NCBI RefSeq assembly: GCF_001908205.1
Contig: NZ_LGHL01000021.1
Location: 1-64,000, forward strand
Direction of reading: 5' to 3'
From: Bradyrhizobium sp. NAS80.1
GTDB taxonomy: Bacteria > Pseudomonadota > Alphaproteobacteria > Rhizobiales > Xanthobacteraceae
DNA length: 64,000 bases
Shown here piece by piece: positions 15,661 to 30,516 of the stretch (the stretch's first letter is position 1; every line of letters starts with the position of its first letter). The notes under the pieces are model-generated. The model was not told the DNA's origin. It was given only the letters and a program-made list of their open reading frames with translations, and did not search any database. The translations under genes were made by a program, and so were the position numbers.

Positions 15661-18600
15661 TTAGTGCGGAGGCGATCGCACCCGCGCGATCGTCTCGCGG
15701 ACGCCGGTCCATGCGGGCTTGTCGGGCGCGAATTGCTTGCGCAGGAAGGTGACGAGCTCCTCGACCTGTGCGTCGCTCATGCTCGCCTGGAAGGCGGGCA
15801 TGTAGCCGAGATCGCTCGAGACGGGCTCGGCGATGCCGTGCAGGATGACCTGAACGAGATTGTCCGACGTTGCACTGTGCAGGTTGCTGTTGAGCGCGAG
15901 CGAGGGGCGGCTGCCGAACAGCGGCAGTCCGCCGACCTCGTGGCAGGCGGCGCAGGCGCCGAGATAAAGCCGCGCGCCGGTGGAAGAGGCGACGGTGACC
16001 TGCGTTGCGCTCTCGAGATTCGCGGCGAGTGCATCCGGCGCAGGTGCATCGGCTGTCGCGTCGTTGAACGAGTTGAGATAGGCGGCCATCGCGCGAATGT
16101 CTTGATCGGGCAGGGCGGCGAGATCCCTGACGATCGGCGCCATCGGGCCGGCGGCCACGCCGTGGTAGCGCGAATGGCCGGTGCGCAAATAGGCGTAGAG
16201 TTCGTTCTCACTCCACGGGATCGGCGCGTGCGAGAGCGAAGTCAGCGGCGGCGCCTCCCAGCCTTCAGCAAAGCCGCCGGCGAGATAGGCCTCGCGCTGC
16301 TCGGCGCCGAGCGCGTTGCGCGGTGAGTGGCAGGCGCTGCAATGGCCGAGACCCTCGACGAGATAGGCGCCGCGATTCCACAGCTCCGATTTTGCGGGAT
16401 CAGGTTTGAACTCGCGCGTCTGATGGAACAGCGCATTCCAGCCCGCGAGCAGCGGGCGGAGATTGAATGGGAAGGCGAGCGTGTTTGCCGGCGCGGTCGC
16501 GCGGACCGCGGGCTGCGCCATCAGATAAGCGTAGAGCGCCTGCATGTCGGCATCATCAGTCTTCGAAAAATGCGTGTAGGGGAAGGCGGGATAGAGCTGC
16601 CGTCCGTCGCGATGAAGCCCGTCCCGCATCGCGCGCTCGAAGGCGGGATAGGACCAGGCACCGATGCCGGTCTCGACGTCGGGCGTGATGTTGGTGGAGT
16701 AGATCGTTCCGAACGGCGTCTCCAGTGCGCGGCCGCCGGCGTTGAGTGCGCCTCGAAGCGTGGCGTGGCACTCCGCGCAATTGCCGAGCGCGGCGAGCTG
16801 CTGGCCGCGCGCGATCGTCGCCGCGGAATAGACCGAAGCGTCGGGCCGTGCGATCGGTGCGATCGCGCGCCCCGGCAGCAGCGCCGCGCCGATGCCGATC
16901 GCGGCGGTGCAGACGGCCGCAATCGTCGCGAAGATGCCGGCGCGCTTCGCGAACGGATTTTGCCAGATGCGAGACGGCGGCGACGCTGCAGGGGCGGGCA
17001 GGGCCTGCGGCGTGGCGGATGCATCGCCGTGTAACCCGTTGAGGATACGCTCGGGCGTAAATGGCGGCTCGCGAAAGCGCACGCCGGTGGCGTCGAAGAT
17101 CGCATTGGCGATCGCTGCCGCGCTCGGCACCGATGCGGACTCGCCGACGCCAAGCGGCGGCTGGTCCGGCCGCGGCAGCATCAACACGTCGATCTTGGGC
17201 ACGTCGGGGAAGGGAATGATCGGATAGGCGCCCCATTCGCGCGCCGCCACCGCGCCGCGCTCGAACGAGACCTCCTCCATCAGCGCGCGGCTGGTGGACT
17301 GGATGACGTTACCCTGGATCTGGTGCCGCACGCCGTCCGGATTGATCATCAATCCGGAGTCCTGCCCCGCGACCACGCGCGTCACACTGACGTCGCCGGT
17401 CGTCTTGTTCACCGCAACGTCGGCGACCCAGGCTGACCATGCCGCGCCATAGCCCGGAAACTTGCTGTGGACATAGAGTGCGTAGGCAAAGCCGCGCCCC
17501 TGCACGACCTCACCGTCCTTGGCTTGCCGTACCGGTCGCGGCGTCCAGCCCGCGCGCTCTGCCACCGCATTGACGAGATCGACGGCGCGCTGGTCCTTCA
17601 AATAGCGCAGGCGATATTCGATCGGATCGACGCCGGCCTCGGTCGCGGCTTCGTCGATATAGGATTCATGCGCAAACGTGTTCGGCAGCGCCGAGACGCC
17701 GCGAAACCAGGACGCACGCACGATCGGCGGCATGTCGTGGGCGACGACGCGCATGTGGTCGTAATCATAGGGCGGGATTGCGGTACGGTCGCCCATCTGG
17801 AGCACGGCAGGTTCGGGCGAAATCCGCCCGGTCAGCAGAAGCGCGAGCGTCGGTGCCGCATTCGACGGATAGCGCGTGGCGAGATCGTAAGCAGCGACGC
17901 CGCCGTCCGCGTCCAATCCGCCATTGACGTCGATCAGCTGCGCGGTGCCCTTGGGCTCCCAGGCGTGCTCCTGCTCACGCGTCAACTGCACGCGCACGGG
18001 CCGGCCGACCGCGCGCGACAGCAGCAGCGCATCGGCGGTGACGTCATCGGCGCAGTTGCGGCCATAGCAGCCGGCAGCCTCGAGCCTGATGACCTCGATC
18101 TCGCTTTCCGCCCGCTCGATCAGCAGGGCCAGATCGCAGCGCAGCACATGCGGGTTCTGCGTGCCGGACCAGACGCGGATATTGCCGTCCTGAAAGTCGG
18201 CGACGGCACAGGACGGGCCGATCGCGGCGTGCATCTGATACGGCCAGACATAGGTGCGCTGCATCGGCTTGGCCGCGCCGGCAATCGCCGCACTGACGTC
18301 GCCCTTGTCGATCAACGTGCGCGGCGTCGACGGATTGGCGCGCAGCGCGGTCTCGACATCGGCGAGGTCAGTCAGTGCCGGCGTCGGCTTCCAGCGCACC
18401 GCGAGCTGCTCCGCCGCGCGGATCGCGTTCTCCTCGCGCTCGGCGACGACGCCGACGAAGTCGCCAAGGCGCACGACGGCCACGAGGCCGGGAATGTCGC
18501 GTACCGAGGCCTCGTCGACCGCAATCAGGCTGGTGCCGACGAACGGACCGGCATCGACACCGGCGTAGGGCGGACGCACCACGCGGCCGTGCAGCATGCC

Positions 18601-19191
18601 GGGCAGGCGAATGTCGTGCACGAAGGTCAGCTCGCCCGTGGCCTTTGCCGGCAGATCGACGCGGGGCATCGACTGGCCGACGATGGCGTAATCGCCGACA
18701 GGCTTCACGGCGACGTCGTCAACAAGCTCGAGGCGGATCGTCTCGCCGCCGATCAGCTCGCCATAGCTGACGCTGCGATTGTCGTGCCCGCGAACAAGGC
18801 CGTCTTCGATCCGCAAGTTGGCGACCGGCAGCTCCAGCCGCTCGGCTGCGCGCGCGATCAAGAAGTGCCGCGCCTGCGCGGCGGCCTTGCGCAGGGGCAC
18901 TGCGGTGATCTGGATGGTTTCGCTGGCGATCGTCGCGCCCTGGTTCGGCACGATCGCGGTGTCGCCGAGCACGACGACGACGCGGGCAAAGGAGACGTCG
19001 AGCTCTTCGGCGACGATCTGGCCGAGCGCGGTGCGGATGCCGGTGCCGAGATCGACATGGCCGTTATAGGCGCTGACTGTTCCATCCCCGGTGATCCGCA
19101 GGAAGGTTTCGGATGTGCACTCGTCCACTGTGCGGACGACAACGAGTGAACCGGATTGCCGCTCGGCTCCGTTCGGATGCGGGGAGGCCAT
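15661..19191 (-). CDS. Nicotinate-dehydrogenase-like Mo subunit fused to tri-heme cytochrome c (NicB-like)
   Basis: A 1176-residue fusion. Residues about 1-740 are a xanthine-dehydrogenase-family molybdopterin subunit. A hydrophobic helix (about 750-770, IFATIAAVCTAAIGIGA) joins it to a cytochrome domain with three heme sites, CAECH (about 805), CSACH (about 952) and CAACH (about 1080). Length and order match NicB of Pseudomonas putida, which with NicA hydroxylates nicotinate at C6 and passes electrons to cytochromes. The start at 19191 overlaps the stop of the iron-sulfur subunit gene (ATGA). A related substrate such as isoquinoline cannot be excluded from the protein alone, but the neighbouring 6-hydroxynicotinate reductase and enamidase favour nicotinate. 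Confidence 0.85.
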   Translation of the reverse strand: MASPHPNGAERQSGSLVVVRTVDECTSETFLRITGDGTVSAYNGHVDLGTGIRTALGQIVAEELDVSFARVVVVLGDTAIVPNQGATIASETIQITAVPLRKAAAQARHFLIARAAERLELPVANLRIEDGLVRGHDNRSVSYGELIGGETIRLELVDDVAVKPVGDYAIVGQSMPRVDLPAKATGELTFVHDIRLPGMLHGRVVRPPYAGVDAGPFVGTSLIAVDEASVRDIPGLVAVVRLGDFVGVVAEREENAIRAAEQLAVRWKPTPALTDLADVETALRANPSTPRTLIDKGDVSAAIAGAAKPMQRTYVWPYQMHAAIGPSCAVADFQDGNIRVWSGTQNPHVLRCDLALLIERAESEIEVIRLEAAGCYGRNCADDVTADALLLSRAVGRPVRVQLTREQEHAWEPKGTAQLIDVNGGLDADGGVAAYDLATRYPSNAAPTLALLLTGRISPEPAVLQMGDRTAIPPYDYDHMRVVAHDMPPIVRASWFRGVSALPNTFAHESYIDEAATEAGVDPIEYRLRYLKDQRAVDLVNAVAERAGWTPRPVRQAKDGEVVQGRGFAYALYVHSKFPGYGAAWSAWVADVAVNKTTGDVSVTRVVAGQDSGLMINPDGVRHQIQGNVIQSTSRALMEEVSFERGAVAAREWGAYPIIPFPDVPKIDVLMLPRPDQPPLGVGESASVPSAAAIANAIFDATGVRFREPPFTPERILNGLHGDASATPQALPAPAASPPSRIWQNPFAKRAGIFATIAAVCTAAIGIGAALLPGRAIAPIARPDASVYSAATIARGQQLAALGNCAECHATLRGALNAGGRALETPFGTIYSTNITPDVETGIGAWSYPAFERAMRDGLHRDGRQLYPAFPYTHFSKTDDADMQALYAYLMAQPAVRATAPANTLAFPFNLRPLLAGWNALFHQTREFKPDPAKSELWNRGAYLVEGLGHCSACHSPRNALGAEQREAYLAGGFAEGWEAPPLTSLSHAPIPWSENELYAYLRTGHSRYHGVAAGPMAPIVRDLAALPDQDIRAMAAYLNSFNDATADAPAPDALAANLESATQVTVASSTGARLYLGACAACHEVGGLPLFGSRPSLALNSNLHSATSDNLVQVILHGIAEPVSSDLGYMPAFQASMSDAQVEELVTFLRKQFAPDKPAWTGVRETIARVRSPPH

Positions 19192-19673
19192 CAATCCGTG
19201 GCCTCGGTGAGCTGGCCCGATGCGCGCATCACCGCGCGCAGAATTTCGACATGCGTGCCGCAACGGCAGAGATTGTAGCGCAGCGCCGCCAGCGCCTCCT
19301 GCTCGGTCGGCTGCGGGTTGATCGCAAGCAGCGCCTTGGTGGTCATGATCATGCCGTTGAGGCAATAGCCGCATTGCGCGGCCTGCTCGTCAATGAAGGC
19401 CTGCTGCACCACATCCGGCTTGTCGCGTGTGCCGAGCCCTTCGAGCGTCACGATGTCGCGGCCGGCGCAGCCGCTGATCGGAATGACGCAGGAGCGCGCC
19501 GCCGCGCCGTCGATCAGGACAGTGCAGGTGCCGCACTCGCCGAGGCCACAACCATATTTCGGGCCGTTGAGCGCGAGGTCGTTACGCAGCACGTAGAGCA
19601 GCGGCGTTTCTCGCGCCGCAGTGACCTCGTGGATCCTGCCGTTCACGGTGAGGCGGATCGGTGTTTGCGTCAT
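19191..19673 (-). CDS. [2Fe-2S] subunit of the nicotinate-dehydrogenase-like enzyme (NicA-like)
   Basis: A 160-residue iron-sulfur subunit of the xanthine dehydrogenase family. The N-terminal plant-type cluster motif is CGLGECGTCTV plus a downstream Cys, and the C-terminal cluster motifs are CGYC and CRCGTH. It relays electrons from the Mo site to the cytochrome part of its partner. The ATG at 19671-19673 is preferred; a TTG four codons upstream (19685) is also in frame. An inverted repeat at 19727-19742 lies 54 bases upstream. Confidence 0.88.
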   Translation of the reverse strand: MTQTPIRLTVNGRIHEVTAARETPLLYVLRNDLALNGPKYGCGLGECGTCTVLIDGAAARSCVIPISGCAGRDIVTLEGLGTRDKPDVVQQAFIDEQAAQCGYCLNGMIMTTKALLAINPQPTEQEALAALRYNLCRCGTHVEILRAVMRASGQLTEATD

Positions 19674-19921: not shown

Positions 19922-21379
19922 ATGGTGATGGAAATAACGAGCGCCGCGATCGACAAGATCCGCTGCGATGCCTGTCCGGTGATGTGCTACATCAAGCCGG
20001 GCGCGGCGGGCGCCTGCGACCGCTATGCCAATCATGATGGCAAGCTCGTTCGCGTTGATCCGCACGTGATCCTGGAGCGCACTGTCTCGCATGGCGGCAA
20101 GCTCGTCCCGTTCAGCCGAACCGAAGATTGGGACGGCAAGATCGTCCACGAGCCCTCGACGTTCGTGACCGCGATCGGCGCGGGCACGACCTATCCCGAC
20201 TACAAGCCGGCGCCGTTCATCGTCTCCGCGGAGGTCGACGGGGTCGACATGGTGACTGTGGTCACTGAAGGCATATTCTCCTATTGCGGCATCAAGGTGA
20301 AGATCGACACCGACCGCTATCTCGGCCCCGAAACTGCGACCGTCCGCGCGCAGGGCGAGGCGGTCGGCCACGTCACGACCAGCGAATACGGCTCGCAGAT
20401 GCTGTCGCTCGGCGGCGTGCATCATCTCACCGGCGGCTCCAAGAAGGAGGGCCGCGTCACCTGCGACACGCTGATGGATCTCGCCAATTGCAAGGCGGTG
20501 GAGCTCACCATCGACGGCGGCGCAAGCGTGGTGGTGCAGGCCGGCCAGCCGCCGATCGTCAACGGTGTCAGGGAAGAGCGCATGCGTGTCGGCTGCGGCT
20601 CGGCGACGATCGGGATGTTTGCGAAGCAGTGGCACGGCAAGGTCGATGAGGTCGTGGTGGTCGACGATCACATCACCGGCGTGCTGAGCGAGCACCAGGC
20701 CGGCAAGCTGCTCGATATCGCCGACACCGGCATCAAGATGAAGGGCCGGCGGTCGACGCCCGGCCGCTATTTCCAGGTCGCCGATCCCGGCACGGGGTGG
20801 GGCGGCACCAACATCTCCGATCCGCTCTCGATTCTCGGTCCCTTCGACGCCAAGGAAGCCAGGGCCGGCCTCTCGATGCTGATGGTCTCCACGACCGGCG
20901 AGCATTCATCATACTATGTGCTCGACGAGGCCTTGAAGCCGGTCGAGATCGAGATGCCTGATGACCTGAAGTTCTCGGTCGAGCGCATCCAGGAGAATTG
21001 CGAGCCGGCGCTGTGCACGGTGCTGTTCATGGCTGGTGCCGGCGGCTCGCTGCGCGCGGGCGTCACCGACAATCCGGTGCGGCTGACGCGCTCGGTGAAG
21101 GACGCGCTGACGCGCGTCACCAGCGGCGGTGCGCCTGTTTATGTCTGGCCGGGCGGCGGCATCACCTACATGGTCGATGTGACGCAGATGCCCGCCGGCG
21201 CGTTCGGCTATGTGCCGACGCCGGCGCTGGTCGCGCCGATCGAATTCACGATGAAGCTGTCCGACTATGCCGCGCTCGGCGGGCACATGGATTATGTGAA
21301 GCCGCTGTCCGAAGTGAAGGGTGGCGATGATGTGCGCCAGCTGCCCTGGCAGAATCCGATTCCGGGACCCCGGGCATGA
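19922..21379 (+). CDS. 6-hydroxynicotinate reductase-like iron-sulfur flavoprotein
   Basis: A 485-residue protein that I recognise as the 6-hydroxynicotinate reductase family. In Eubacterium barkeri this enzyme reduces 6-hydroxynicotinate to 1,4,5,6-tetrahydro-6-oxonicotinate with reduced ferredoxin and carries iron-sulfur clusters and covalent flavin. Here a cysteine set C15, C18, C22, C32 near the N-terminus could bind [4Fe-4S]; more cysteines lie at about 122, 181, 190 and 225. An LTGGS segment (169-173) faintly resembles flavin attachment sites. The gene is divergent from the hydroxylase genes, and its 3' end overlaps the next gene (ATGA). The start at 19922 has little ribosome binding site; an in-frame ATG at 19928 is possible. 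Confidence 0.8.
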   Translation: MVMEITSAAIDKIRCDACPVMCYIKPGAAGACDRYANHDGKLVRVDPHVILERTVSHGGKLVPFSRTEDWDGKIVHEPSTFVTAIGAGTTYPDYKPAPFIVSAEVDGVDMVTVVTEGIFSYCGIKVKIDTDRYLGPETATVRAQGEAVGHVTTSEYGSQMLSLGGVHHLTGGSKKEGRVTCDTLMDLANCKAVELTIDGGASVVVQAGQPPIVNGVREERMRVGCGSATIGMFAKQWHGKVDEVVVVDDHITGVLSEHQAGKLLDIADTGIKMKGRRSTPGRYFQVADPGTGWGGTNISDPLSILGPFDAKEARAGLSMLMVSTTGEHSSYYVLDEALKPVEIEMPDDLKFSVERIQENCEPALCTVLFMAGAGGSLRAGVTDNPVRLTRSVKDALTRVTSGGAPVYVWPGGGITYMVDVTQMPAGAFGYVPTPALVAPIEFTMKLSDYAALGGHMDYVKPLSEVKGGDDVRQLPWQNPIPGPRA

Positions 21380-22275
21380 CGAGGCTCCCGCAAATCGCAT
21401 TGCTGTCTGATGGCCGGCGGCTGCATTTGCAGGATGGGCCGATTGATCTGATCGTGGAGGCGAGGGGGCGCACCCACGACGTGCGTGCGGCCTATGAGGC
21501 GGCAGCGGGTCGCTTCACCGGGCTGCTCGACGAGCTCTGCGCGGAACTGTCCGAACTGCGCAAGGCGGTGGCCCCCGCCAAGTGCATGCTGAATGGCGTT
21601 GTCGCACGCCGCATGTATGCTGCGGTGGCGCCCTATGCCACCGACTGCTTCATCACGCCGATGGCTGCCGTGGCCGGCAGCGTGGCGGAGGAGATTCTCC
21701 GGGCGATGTTGGACGCTGCGACGCTTGATCAGGCCTATGTCAACAATGGCGGCGACATCGCCCTTCATCTTGGCCGGGGTGAGCATTTTTCAATAGGCCT
21801 GATGGACCGGCCCGACCGCGCCGGCGTGATGCGGACGATGAAGGTCGATGCGGATGACGCTGCGCGCGGCATCGCGACCAGCGGTCGGCATGGCCGCAGC
21901 TTTTCCCTGGGGATTGCCGACGCGGTGACGGTGCTGGCCGCAACTGCGTCGCAGGCCGATGCGGCGGCCACCATCATAGCCAATGCCGTGGATCTGCCGG
22001 GACATTCCGCGATCATACGGCGCCCTGCGAATGAGCTTCAGCCTGATAGCGATCTCGGCGCGCGCCTCGTCACCCTCGAAGTCGGTGAATTGTCGCAGAA
22101 CGAGATCGCGGCAGCGCTCGAAGCTGGCGCGGATTGTGCACGGCAACTATTCGATCGAGGACTGATCGAGGGTGCCGTGTTGCAGCTTTGTGGTGATTTG
22201 CTTGTCATCGGAACAAAGGATATTGAACGGCAACGATCGCGCCCGCCAGTGCTGGAGAACGCGGTTCATGCCTGA
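21376..22275 (+). CDS. UPF0280 (ApbE-like) family protein
   Basis: A 299-residue protein of the UPF0280 family, which is related in fold to ApbE flavin transferases. Visible features include NNGGDIALHL (about residues 117-126), similar to the ApbE NxGGD motif, and ATSGRHGRSFSLGIADAVTV (about 173-192), similar to the ApbE region that ends in a metal-binding aspartate. Its start overlaps the reductase stop (ATGA), so the two are translationally coupled. That coupling suggests it matures the reductase, for example by attaching flavin. The attachment role is inference; the family is recognised with fair confidence. Confidence 0.75.
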   Translation: MTRLPQIALLSDGRRLHLQDGPIDLIVEARGRTHDVRAAYEAAAGRFTGLLDELCAELSELRKAVAPAKCMLNGVVARRMYAAVAPYATDCFITPMAAVAGSVAEEILRAMLDAATLDQAYVNNGGDIALHLGRGEHFSIGLMDRPDRAGVMRTMKVDADDAARGIATSGRHGRSFSLGIADAVTVLAATASQADAAATIIANAVDLPGHSAIIRRPANELQPDSDLGARLVTLEVGELSQNEIAAALEAGADCARQLFDRGLIEGAVLQLCGDLLVIGTKDIERQRSRPPVLENAVHA

Positions 22276-22301: not shown

Positions 22302-22886
22302 ATGAGCGCGATCATCCGCAAGATCGTCACCGTCGTCGAAGAGACGCAGATGGAGATGGGCCGGCAGGTGTCGCCGCCGACCCGGCGCGCGGCCGCAATT
22401 GCCGTCATCGAAAATCCCTTTGCCGGAAAATATGTCGAAGACCTTTCGCCGCTGATCGCAATCGGTGAGGAGCTCGGCGAGCTCCTGTCGAAGCGCGCGG
22501 TCGCGGCGCTCGGCATCGATGGCGCGAAGGCCCAGAGCTACGGCAAGGCTGCGGCCGTCGGCGAGAACGGCGAGCTCGAACATGCCGCCGCCATCCTCCA
22601 CCCAAAGATGGGCGCGCCGGTTCGCAAGGTGCTGAGCAAGGGCGCTGCGCTGATTCCGTCGTCGAAGAAGCGCAGCGGTCCCGGCACGACGCTCGACATT
22701 CCCCTCGGCCACAAGGACGCGGCCTTCGTGCGCAGTCATTTCGACGGCATGGAGGTGCAGATCAACGACGCACCCCGCGCCAACGAGATCATGGTCGCAG
22801 TCGCCGTCACCGATAGTGGCCGTCCGTTGCCGCGCGTCGGCGGGCTGACGGTTGCGGAGATCAAGGGCGAAGACGGCTTGAGATAG
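22302..22886 (+). CDS. DUF1185 (amino acid synthesis family) protein
   Basis: A 194-residue protein of the DUF1185 family (Pfam AA_synth, PF06684), recognised by features such as AAAIAVIENPFAGKYVEDL, HAAAILHPKMGAPVRK and GTTLDIPLGHKDA. No biochemical activity is firmly known for the family. It follows the reductase and UPF0280 genes by 26 bases, so it probably shares their transcript and acts in the same pathway. AAGGAAAC precedes the ATG at 22302. Confidence 0.75.
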   Translation: MSAIIRKIVTVVEETQMEMGRQVSPPTRRAAAIAVIENPFAGKYVEDLSPLIAIGEELGELLSKRAVAALGIDGAKAQSYGKAAAVGENGELEHAAAILHPKMGAPVRKVLSKGAALIPSSKKRSGPGTTLDIPLGHKDAAFVRSHFDGMEVQINDAPRANEIMVAVAVTDSGRPLPRVGGLTVAEIKGEDGLR

Positions 22887-28389: not shown

Positions 28390-29586
28390 CTACTTCCCTA
28401 CTACCTCCGGCACTTTCCCTGCCGGTGGCGTGTTGCGGCTGCGCTGGGTGCGCACGATGCCGTCGATGATGGTCATGCCGATGCCGGGGAGGTCGCCGAG
28501 CTGGACGCTCTCCAAAATGTTCTTGCCGGGCGAGTGCTGAGCCTGGTCCATGATGACGAAATCGGCGGAGCGGCCGACCTCGATCAGGCCGCAGTCGAGC
28601 TGCCGCATCCGCGCGGTGTTGCCGGTGGCAAGGCAGAACGCAATCTCGGCCGGTAGCTCGCCGAGCGAGGACAGCATCGAGACCATGCGCAGGATACCGA
28701 GCGGTTGCACGCCGGAGCCGGCGGGCGCGTCGGTGCCGAGGATGACGCGGTGCAAATCGCCCATCTCGCGTGCGGTGCGCAGGGTGAACAGGGCCGAGCG
28801 CTCATTGCCGTTGTGCACGAGCTCGAGGCCGCGTTTGCAGCCCTCGCAGATGCAACGGATCTGGTCGTCGGGGAGCGCGGTGTGGCCGCCATTGATGTGA
28901 CCGACCACGTCGGTGTCGGCCTCGAGCACCACGTCCTTGTCGATCAGGCCGGAGCCGGGGATCGACGGGCCGCCGGTGTGAATCGTGCTCTGGATGCCAT
29001 ATTTGCGGGCCCAGCCGACCATCTTCCGCGCGGTCGGACCGTCCTTGACGCCGCCGAGGCCGACTTCGCCGAGCAGCTTGACGCCGTTGGCGGCCATCTC
29101 CTTGAAGTCCTCTTCGACCATCTCGCATTCGATCACCGGCGCGCCGGCGTGAACCTTCACGCCGCCCGGACGCAAGGTCCAGAACGCGCGCTGGGCGAAC
29201 ACCGCCATTGCCTTCAGGCCGACGACGTCGCGGGGACGGCCGGGCATGTGGACTTCGCCGGCGGAGATCATGGTGGTGACGCCGCCATGGAGGTAGCTGT
29301 CGATCCAGTTGATCTGGTTCTGCCGCGGCGTCCAGTCGCCGGCGACAGGGTGGACGTGGCTGTCGATCAGGCCCGGTGCCACCGTGGTGCCGTGAGCATC
29401 CACGATGGTGGTCGCGCCTTCCGTGTTGACGTCCTTGAAGCGGCCGATCGCGGTGATCTTGCCGTTCTCTGCGACGATGGTGTCGCCGTCCAGGATCGGC
29501 TTTTCCAGGGCGCCGGACAGGATCAGGCCGATATTGCGGATCACGAGCTTCGAAGGTCCGGTGGCCTGGGGTGCGTCATTCGCCAT
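28390..29586 (-). CDS. Enamidase-like amidohydrolase
   Basis: A 398-residue amidohydrolase from the ATG at 29584-29586, which has AAGGAG eight bases upstream. Likely metal ligands are H77 and H79 (DSHVHP), E173 (GEVGLGG), H202 (IHTGG), H229 (GHINGG) and D285 (GTDAPAG). Stretches such as SYLHGGVTTMISAGEVHMPG and the SRNTPPA tail closely recall enamidase of Eubacterium barkeri, an Fe/Zn enzyme that opens 1,4,5,6-tetrahydro-6-oxonicotinate to 2-formylglutarate and ammonia. The gene is convergent with the importer operon and shares an operator region with the divergent ferredoxin-NADP reductase gene. Confidence 0.85.
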   Translation of the reverse strand: MANDAPQATGPSKLVIRNIGLILSGALEKPILDGDTIVAENGKITAIGRFKDVNTEGATTIVDAHGTTVAPGLIDSHVHPVAGDWTPRQNQINWIDSYLHGGVTTMISAGEVHMPGRPRDVVGLKAMAVFAQRAFWTLRPGGVKVHAGAPVIECEMVEEDFKEMAANGVKLLGEVGLGGVKDGPTARKMVGWARKYGIQSTIHTGGPSIPGSGLIDKDVVLEADTDVVGHINGGHTALPDDQIRCICEGCKRGLELVHNGNERSALFTLRTAREMGDLHRVILGTDAPAGSGVQPLGILRMVSMLSSLGELPAEIAFCLATGNTARMRQLDCGLIEVGRSADFVIMDQAQHSPGKNILESVQLGDLPGIGMTIIDGIVRTQRSRNTPPAGKVPEVVGK

Positions 29587-29634
29587 GGAAGGGCTCCTTA
29601 TTCCTAACTGCAACGCTCGCGATCTTGGGCAGCC

Positions 29635-29742: not shown

Positions 29743-30516
29743 ATGAGCAATTTCAATCAGGAAAGCGTTTTGAGCGTCCACCACTGGACCGACACGCTGT
29801 TCTCTTTCAAGACCACGCGCAGCCCGACCTTCCGCTTCCGCAACGGCGAATTCACCATGATCGGGCTCAAGGTCGGCGAGAAGCCCTTGCTGCGGGCCTA
29901 CAGCGTCGCCAGCGCCAACTACGAGGACACGCTGGAGTTCTTCTCGATCAAGGTGCCGGACGGCCCGCTGACCTCGCGCCTGCAGCACCTGAAGGAAGGC
30001 GACGAGATCATCGTCAGCCGCAAGGCCACCGGTACGCTGGTCATCGACAACCTGGAAGAGGGGCGCAACCTCTACCTCATCGGTACCGGCACGGGCCTCG
30101 CGCCGTTCCTGAGCGTGATCAAGGACCCCGAAACCTACGAGCGCTTCGAGAAGGTCGTGCTGCTGCACGGCTGCCGTCACGTCAAGGAGCTCGCCTATGG
30201 CGAGATGATCACCGAGACGCTGCCGAAAGACGAACTGATCGGCGACTACATCCGCAATCAGCTCATCTACTATCCGACGGTGACCCGCGATCCCTTCCGC
30301 AACCGCGGCCGCATCACCGACCTCATCACCTCCGGGAAGCTGTTTGCCGATATCGGCCTGCCGGCGCTGGAAGCAGCCCACGACCGCGTCATGATCTGCG
30401 GCAGCCCGGCGCTGGTTACGGACACCCGTGTGCTCCTGACCGAGCGCGGCTTCGTCGAGGGCAGCCATGGTGAGCCGGCCCAGTTCGTGGTCGAAAAGGC
30501 CTTTGCCGAGCGCTAA
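29743..30516 (+). CDS. fpr: Ferredoxin-NADP(+) reductase (Fpr-like)
   Basis: A 257-residue two-domain flavoenzyme. RAYSVAS is the FAD-binding motif, YLIGTGTGLAPFLS and GSPALV belong to the NADP domain, and the protein ends VVEKAFAER as in bacterial Fpr proteins. AAGGAAGGTGAG lies before the ATG at 29743. It moves electrons between NADPH and ferredoxin. Because its promoter carries the operators of the nicotinate genes, it may supply reduced ferredoxin to the 6-hydroxynicotinate reductase; this is inference. It could equally serve oxidative stress, the usual Fpr role. Confidence 0.9.
   Translation: MSNFNQESVLSVHHWTDTLFSFKTTRSPTFRFRNGEFTMIGLKVGEKPLLRAYSVASANYEDTLEFFSIKVPDGPLTSRLQHLKEGDEIIVSRKATGTLVIDNLEEGRNLYLIGTGTGLAPFLSVIKDPETYERFEKVVLLHGCRHVKELAYGEMITETLPKDELIGDYIRNQLIYYPTVTRDPFRNRGRITDLITSGKLFADIGLPALEAAHDRVMICGSPALVTDTRVLLTERGFVEGSHGEPAQFVVEKAFAER

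Follow-up and report, generated by a model that had tools for sequence, protein, structure and literature searches.

A UPF0280 protein with a predicted ApbE fold as a candidate maturation enzyme of 6-hydroxynicotinate reductase

What does a UPF0280 protein do for the enzyme whose gene it overlaps? The question arises from a stretch of 64,000 nucleotides of Bradyrhizobium sp. NAS80.1 (contig NZ_LGHL01000021.1, positions 1 to 64,000), called the window below, in which a UPF0280 gene begins at the very end of hnr, the gene of 6-hydroxynicotinate reductase (Hnr). A preliminary description of this DNA had proposed that the UPF0280 protein, as a relative of the flavin transferase ApbE, attaches flavin covalently to Hnr. 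The comparisons reported here make it likely that the UPF0280 protein is a dedicated maturation enzyme of Hnr. Among single chemistries for this enzyme, covalent flavin transfer is the leading candidate, at a probability of about 0.48, the flavin of Hnr, its covalent attachment and its site being presumed. The argument uses the following features.

19922-21379, + strand: hnr, 6-hydroxynicotinate reductase, 485 amino acids, the proposed client (open reading frame; matches on annotated plasmids)
21376-22275, + strand: UPF0280/COG2122 gene, 299 amino acids, predicted ApbE fold, proposed maturation enzyme of Hnr (NF003322, PF02424, AlphaFold2, VIA-align)
21376-21379, + strand: ATGA stop/start overlap of hnr and the UPF0280 gene (sequence; the same in loci L001-L022)
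21742-21756, + strand: NNGGD motif, UPF0280 residues 123-127 (sequence, alignments)
21880-21897, + strand: UPF0280 residues S169 to R174, S169 being aligned with the catalytic Ser of ApbE (PMC8906456)
21958-21972, + strand: DAAAT, UPF0280 residues 195-199, D195 and T199 corresponding to metal ligands of ApbE (PMC4767422, PMC8906456)
20429-20440, + strand: Hnr residues T170-G-G-S173, the attachment region suggested earlier (residue counts across Hnr copies)

The ATG of the UPF0280 gene sits within the ATGA that ends hnr, which confirms the coupling of the two genes given in the preliminary description; the NNGGD-like motif that it mentioned is present as well. The same -4 overlap is found in all 22 loci of the window's genus (20 distinct genomes). 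Outside this genus, the start position of UPF0280 is variable, with a gap to hnr of up to about 0.5 kilobases (kb).

The association is tighter than this coupling at a single locus. Among 398 sampled Pseudomonadota genomes, the NCBIfam family NF003322 (PRK04334 family) is found above its cut-off in 32 (two further genomes with weak matches of 20-22 bits were left uncounted), and these very 32 genomes, with none of the other 366, are also the ones matched by an Hnr profile; counted by genus, Hnr occurs in 15 of 212. Among 60 relatives, the two proteins again have identical distributions, each being present in 39, a count that is not independent of the former, as the samples share genomes and many of the genomes are related. 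A genome of the window's own genus that has no Hnr (G015) has no UPF0280 either. In the named Hnr loci, which are the best 80 of 586 relatives, UPF0280 is the next gene downstream on the same strand in 76 (gap of -200 to 400 bases) and lies about 1.5 kb further downstream in one (L119); L079, L092 and L100 hold no UPF0280 in the locus, the gene being present elsewhere in all three genomes. Out of 72,556 plasmid records, 27 carry UPF0280 and 26 carry Hnr, and these are the same records except for plasmid pBPS33-1 of Hydrogenophaga sp. BPS33, with four UPF0280 places. At the two places that were read, a C-terminal remnant of Hnr (judged by eye) precedes UPF0280 and IS1071 copies lie nearby, so this plasmid seems to hold a cut pair rather than a true exception.

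Several loci show peculiarities of their own. Record NZ_CP044550.1 (L181) contains repeated blocks with the UPF0280 gene, IS1071 and Rieske oxygenase genes, where Hnr exists as a C-terminal remnant only. In a one-contig genome (G075, locus L042), Hnr is split into two frames, by a pseudogene or a sequencing error, and UPF0280 is intact. Two PF06684-like genes in tandem (by eye) accompany the unlinked UPF0280 in L124 and L126. Among viral contigs, 50 pattern matches to UPF0280 included no true relative.

The nature of the protein can be approached through its family. COG2122 is taken here to be the same family as UPF0280, and MA1715, DvMF_0044 and DVU1097 (structure 2o34) are presumed to be its members. 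The window's protein scores 423.5 bits against NF003322 (cut-off 290), which places it in that family, and 28.9 bits against the Pfam family ApbE, PF02424 (gathering cut-off 25.6). Its AlphaFold2 model has a predicted local distance difference test score (pLDDT) of 92.1 and a predicted template modelling score of 0.90. With this model, Foldseek ranks DVU1097 first (E 1.1e-10), followed through rank 41 by ApbE, FmnB and Ftp structures only. VIA-align gives a Z score of 20.0 to 2o34 and of 14.1-16.1 to ApbE structures, with 204-221 residues aligned, the next unrelated fold scoring 7.6. As modelled, the protein has the ApbE fold over nearly its whole length, and the relation to ApbE noticed in the preliminary description holds. 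In a profile comparison, NNGGD, TSG and AD..AT line up with their equivalents in 27 ApbE proteins (82.5%, 93 columns); the ApbE profile comprises 27 of 32 loci and is biased, because canonical motifs were required for inclusion, and smaller extractions (2 and 1 of the 32 loci) gave 35.2% and 12.1%. The UPF0280 protein is shorter than ApbE and, judging from the fact that no signal peptide is visible by eye, probably cytosolic.

The active site was mapped by sequence alignment of 40 UPF0280 proteins, 34 from Hnr genomes and six linked to COG1900, a protein of homocysteine synthesis. In Escherichia coli Ftp, metal 1 is bound by D280, T284 and the carbonyl of T166 (and by D283 in some structures), metal 2 is bound by E169, and R240 contacts a phosphate (PMC4767422). 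The residues of FmnB that contact flavin adenine dinucleotide (FAD), the nucleotide or the metal are D301, S304/T305, A187, K190, N216, S257, R262 and H273; the K190A, R262A and H273A mutants are inactive, whereas S257A is merely reduced (PMC8906456). The UPF0280 proteins retain the corresponding metal-site positions (A97 and D195 in 39 of 40, T199 in 40 of 40) together with GGD and, in all 40, S169. The ligand set of metal site 1, namely an Asp and a Thr four residues apart and a backbone carbonyl three residues before the Lys/Glu position, thus appears to be present. Hnr-type and COG1900-linked proteins have PMA.VAG, GGD, S169, GxSxSxG and AD..AT as common invariants and differ at residues 123 and 174: residue 123 is Asn in 34/34 proteins from Hnr genomes and Asp or Glu in the COG1900-linked type, and residue 174 is Arg in 34/34 and His in 6/6, respectively. 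The ApbE Asp that contacts the ribose is replaced by Thr. Read in this way, UPF0280 is a protein of the ApbE fold with one putative metal site retained and an altered nucleotide pocket.

Such a pocket could also belong to a protein that aids Hnr non-covalently, as a flavin-loading or folding chaperone, as an FAD pyrophosphatase supplying flavin mononucleotide, or as a subunit. The one-to-one pairing of the genes and their frequent overlap would suit this, and Treponema pallidum Ftp shows that the ApbE fold is able to hydrolyse FAD (PMC4767422). Nevertheless, a subunit is less expected when three genomes hold UPF0280 apart from hnr, and a pure chaperone would not need the metal-site residues that nearly all sequences keep. 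Genome G031, of the window's genus, moreover encodes two Hnr proteins, the second sharing 76% identity with the query, and just one UPF0280. Non-covalent aid is accordingly rated as rather unlikely.

Cysteines bear on another possibility, in which UPF0280 would mature Hnr by sulfur handling, that is, by delivering sulfide or persulfide or by building an iron-sulfur (Fe-S) cluster, as proposed for the methanogen protein MA1715. COG2122 is required for homocysteine synthesis in Desulfovibrio vulgaris, where mutants are rescued by methionine and its fitness correlates with that of DUF39 (r = 0.98), and Rauch et al. proposed a role for it in persulfide modification (PMC5764234). The family, described as uncharacterised in the preliminary description, thus does have genetic data, although it is known mainly from genetics. 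In addition, MA1715 of Methanosarcina acetivorans has been termed a sulfur trafficking protein (PMC12068725), the Methanococcus voltae homologue has a cysteine cluster near its C terminus (PMC9431491), and Hnr itself contains conserved cysteines (C15, C18, C22, C32 and others). However, the 40 UPF0280 sequences contain no conserved Cys column, the best one reaching 17/40, which disfavours a sulfur-carrier role of the Hnr-linked proteins; next to the SS motif, 5/6 COG1900-linked proteins have a Cys, against 0/34 from Hnr genomes. The fold and the metal-site residues are, furthermore, those of nucleotide-using enzymes, and sulfur handling is considered unlikely.

The homocysteine-pathway proteins of COG2122 have the same family, fold (2o34) and invariants as the window's UPF0280, which pairs with Hnr whereas they pair with COG1900. 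This second partnership was followed in a sample of 149 genomes from Acidobacteriota, to which L085 belongs as a record of Acidobacteriaceae. PF01837 (COG1900) is found in six of them and Hnr in one (a 20-bit stretch in G471 was excluded). A profile of both UPF0280 types gave eight matches, seven of which were kept, the match in G569 (30.6 bits) being a short degenerate stretch with stops. The seven genomes are exactly the six with COG1900 and the one with Hnr, and UPF0280 adjoins COG1900 in 6/6, five of these gene pairs being codirectional and one facing. In the genomes sampled, UPF0280 therefore accompanies either of two enzymes, Hnr or COG1900. The window's genome gave no PF01837 match, so the homocysteine role is inapplicable there. 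One of 14 control genomes, Synechococcus elongatus, has a PF01837 match without an NF003322 match, so a COG1900-type protein is not always paired with UPF0280.

The idea that Hnr and COG1900 are homologues was raised by their common partner and by a 'VD.VT' stretch that precedes a conserved Cys in both (by eye). This was rejected: the hhalign probability is below 2%, the pairwise alignment (13 of 52 Hnr, 6 COG1900) scores 59.4 versus 57.8 +/- 2.9 for shuffled and 63.6 for reversed sequences, and the profile alignment scores 14.1 versus 13.4 +/- 1.7 and 16.9. The best 60 of 206 PDB matches to the COG1900 profile, which start at position 336 at the earliest, in or near the ferredoxin part, include no solved COG1900 core.

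If Hnr is flavinylated, another enzyme might do it. PF02424 is found in 291 of the 398 Pseudomonadota genomes, and clearly so in 20 of the 32 with Hnr. The match in G215 reaches only E 7.6e-4, and 11 Hnr genomes have no PF02424 match (G021, G223, G227, G250, G253, G256, G263, G273, G391, G421 and G439; G263 is counted from its absence from the match list, and three of the 11 are single contigs). Canonical ApbE is for this reason unlikely as a general flavinylator of Hnr. The same 11 genomes, with the weak twelfth, speak against the view that Hnr takes up its flavin unaided or receives it from another ApbE, with UPF0280 acting in a different step of nicotinate breakdown. Self-flavinylation occurs in some covalent flavoproteins. 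The window's genome holds two other ApbE proteins; as judged by eye, the first lies in a nos-like cluster and the second (L138) shows no obvious signal peptide. The unlinked UPF0280 genes of L124 and L126 still lie among nicotinate-cluster-like genes (by eye). Yet the Acidobacteriota UPF0280 also pairs with COG1900, outside nicotinate breakdown, and this view is judged unlikely. Should an enzyme of the ApbE fold flavinylate Hnr in every case, the only such enzyme detected in all the Hnr genomes is UPF0280.

As for the proposed client, the window's Hnr and its counterparts in named Bradyrhizobium share up to 98% identity (among the best 80 of 586 relatives), and 17 of the 26 Hnr-matching plasmid places are annotated as '6-hydroxynicotinate reductase', the rest being hypothetical or unannotated. 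Strain SG-6C of the Bradyrhizobiaceae has a described nicotinate cluster, and its Hnr homologue shares 42% identity with the Eubacterium barkeri enzyme (PMC3511419). On these similarities, the neighbour of the UPF0280 gene is 6-hydroxynicotinate reductase in a nicotinate cluster. No Pfam or NCBIfam family matches Hnr at 0.001. Alhapel et al. (2006) are reported to have described covalent flavin in the reductase of E. barkeri. A literature search without most subscription journals found no paper under the name UPF0280; hydroxynicotinate was absent, among the matches listed, from papers on ApbE, COG2122, COG1900 or flavinylation.

The LTGGS region around residue 170 had been put forward as the flavin site. 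T170 is kept in 121/121 readable copies and remains a candidate for attachment, solely on its invariance. S173 was rejected as an ApbE-like attachment site, being Ser in 111 of these copies, Thr in two and Gly or Ala in eight. Hnr residues 122-158 (window 20285-20395) form a stretch weakly resembling the C-terminal barrel of the glycine cleavage T-protein, to which 12 of 13 Hnr proteins have a sub-threshold Pfam match (best E 0.0023). The best VIA result for the Hnr model is likewise a glycine cleavage T-protein, at Z 3.9 over 64 residues.

In the mechanism that best joins these results, UPF0280 would bind a metal and a flavin nucleotide and, by ApbE-like chemistry, would move the flavin phosphate onto a conserved side chain of Hnr, giving Hnr with covalent flavin. 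Its nucleotide pocket, the position of the catalytic His and the target sequence would set it apart from canonical ApbE. The gene, the overlap, the predicted fold, the retained motifs and the strict co-occurrence are directly established. The flavin transferase of the preliminary description is favoured by the fold, the metal-site signature, the co-occurrence and the hnr genomes in which no canonical ApbE was detected.

Several points weigh against it. The position of FmnB Lys190 (Glu in E. coli) is Ala100 in 40/40 UPF0280 proteins, and the sole candidate for the catalytic His (Vibrio cholerae H257, FmnB H273) is Arg in all 34 from Hnr genomes; the alignment at this residue, 174, follows motif order and is partly ambiguous because the S169-D195 stretch is shorter than in ApbE, so that it might correspond either to the catalytic His or to the phosphate-binding Arg. 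The PF02424 search of the window's genome did not list UPF0280 itself, which means that a divergent ApbE could be missed. The structure model of Hnr is of moderate confidence (pLDDT 75.6) and matches no known flavin fold in the PDB (best Foldseek E 1.1); the flavin site is thus unreadable from a known fold, and the lack of a match, in a model of this confidence, does not establish a new one. To our knowledge, covalent flavin has been reported in no alphaproteobacterial Hnr. The ApbE target motif, D-x-x-[ST]-G-A-[ST] (PMC12052999), occurs in 0/123 Hnr copies, some of them repeated between loci, and looser forms, found in 17/123, are not conserved. Finally, Price et al. state that the homology of COG2122 seemingly stops short of the flavin-binding region of ApbE (PMC5764234). 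As the Lys and His positions are changed and the client motif is missing, UPF0280 is not classed as a canonical ApbE flavin transferase. For its homologues, a sulfur role has been proposed. In Klebsiella, a cytosolic ApbE acts on soluble fumarate reductase (PMC12052999). This resembles the present proposal, in which enzyme and reductase client would likewise both be cytosolic and the enzyme of ApbE type, but in Klebsiella the enzyme is a canonical ApbE and its client has the canonical motif, neither of which is true of UPF0280 and Hnr.

The surroundings of the pair include probable genes of the same pathway, named from their families:

22302-22886, + strand: gene of the PF06684 'amino acid synthesis' family, next after the UPF0280 gene (Pfam)
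28390-29613, - strand: amidohydrolase, probable enamidase of the pathway (Pfam; cluster in PMC3511419)
19191-19685, - strand: 2Fe-2S subunit of a molybdenum hydroxylase, probable nicotinate dehydrogenase (Pfam, NCBIfam)
15661-19374, - strand: molybdopterin-binding subunit with C-terminal cytochrome c domains, probable nicotinate dehydrogenase (Pfam, NCBIfam)

On the + strand, hnr, the UPF0280 gene, the PF06684 gene and a solute-binding protein gene follow one another, and open reading frames indicate further genes for a branched-chain-type ATP-binding cassette transporter and a MarR regulator. On the other strand, the molybdenum hydroxylase lies upstream of hnr, its large subunit being a cytochrome c fusion that adjoins its 2Fe-2S subunit, and the probable enamidase lies downstream. 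The latter adjoins a ferredoxin--NADP(+) reductase-like gene (29743-30516, + strand; 164 bits against NF008178, below the cut-off of 390), whose product may supply Hnr with electrons.

A wider reading would make UPF0280/COG2122 a second class of protein flavin transferases, cytosolic, with its own target rule and two client families between which no relation was detected: Hnr on the one hand and, on the other, the COG1900 sulfurtransferases that act in homocysteine and perhaps coenzyme M synthesis. COG1900 would then carry a covalent flavin passing ferredoxin electrons to the substrate, and the sulfide phenotype of COG2122 would be a by-product of the unflavinylated sulfurtransferase. This reading is doubtful at present. 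A broad flavinylation survey kept only proteins for which secretion or lipidation was predicted from a signal (PMC8238504), and a cytosolic class could for that reason have escaped notice. Hnr and UPF0280 expressed in E. coli offer a simple test system. If true, the proposal would assign a biochemical role to a family so far known chiefly through genetics, would account for flavin acquisition by Hnr, a poorly understood Fe-S reductase, and would predict a cofactor for the COG1900 enzymes.

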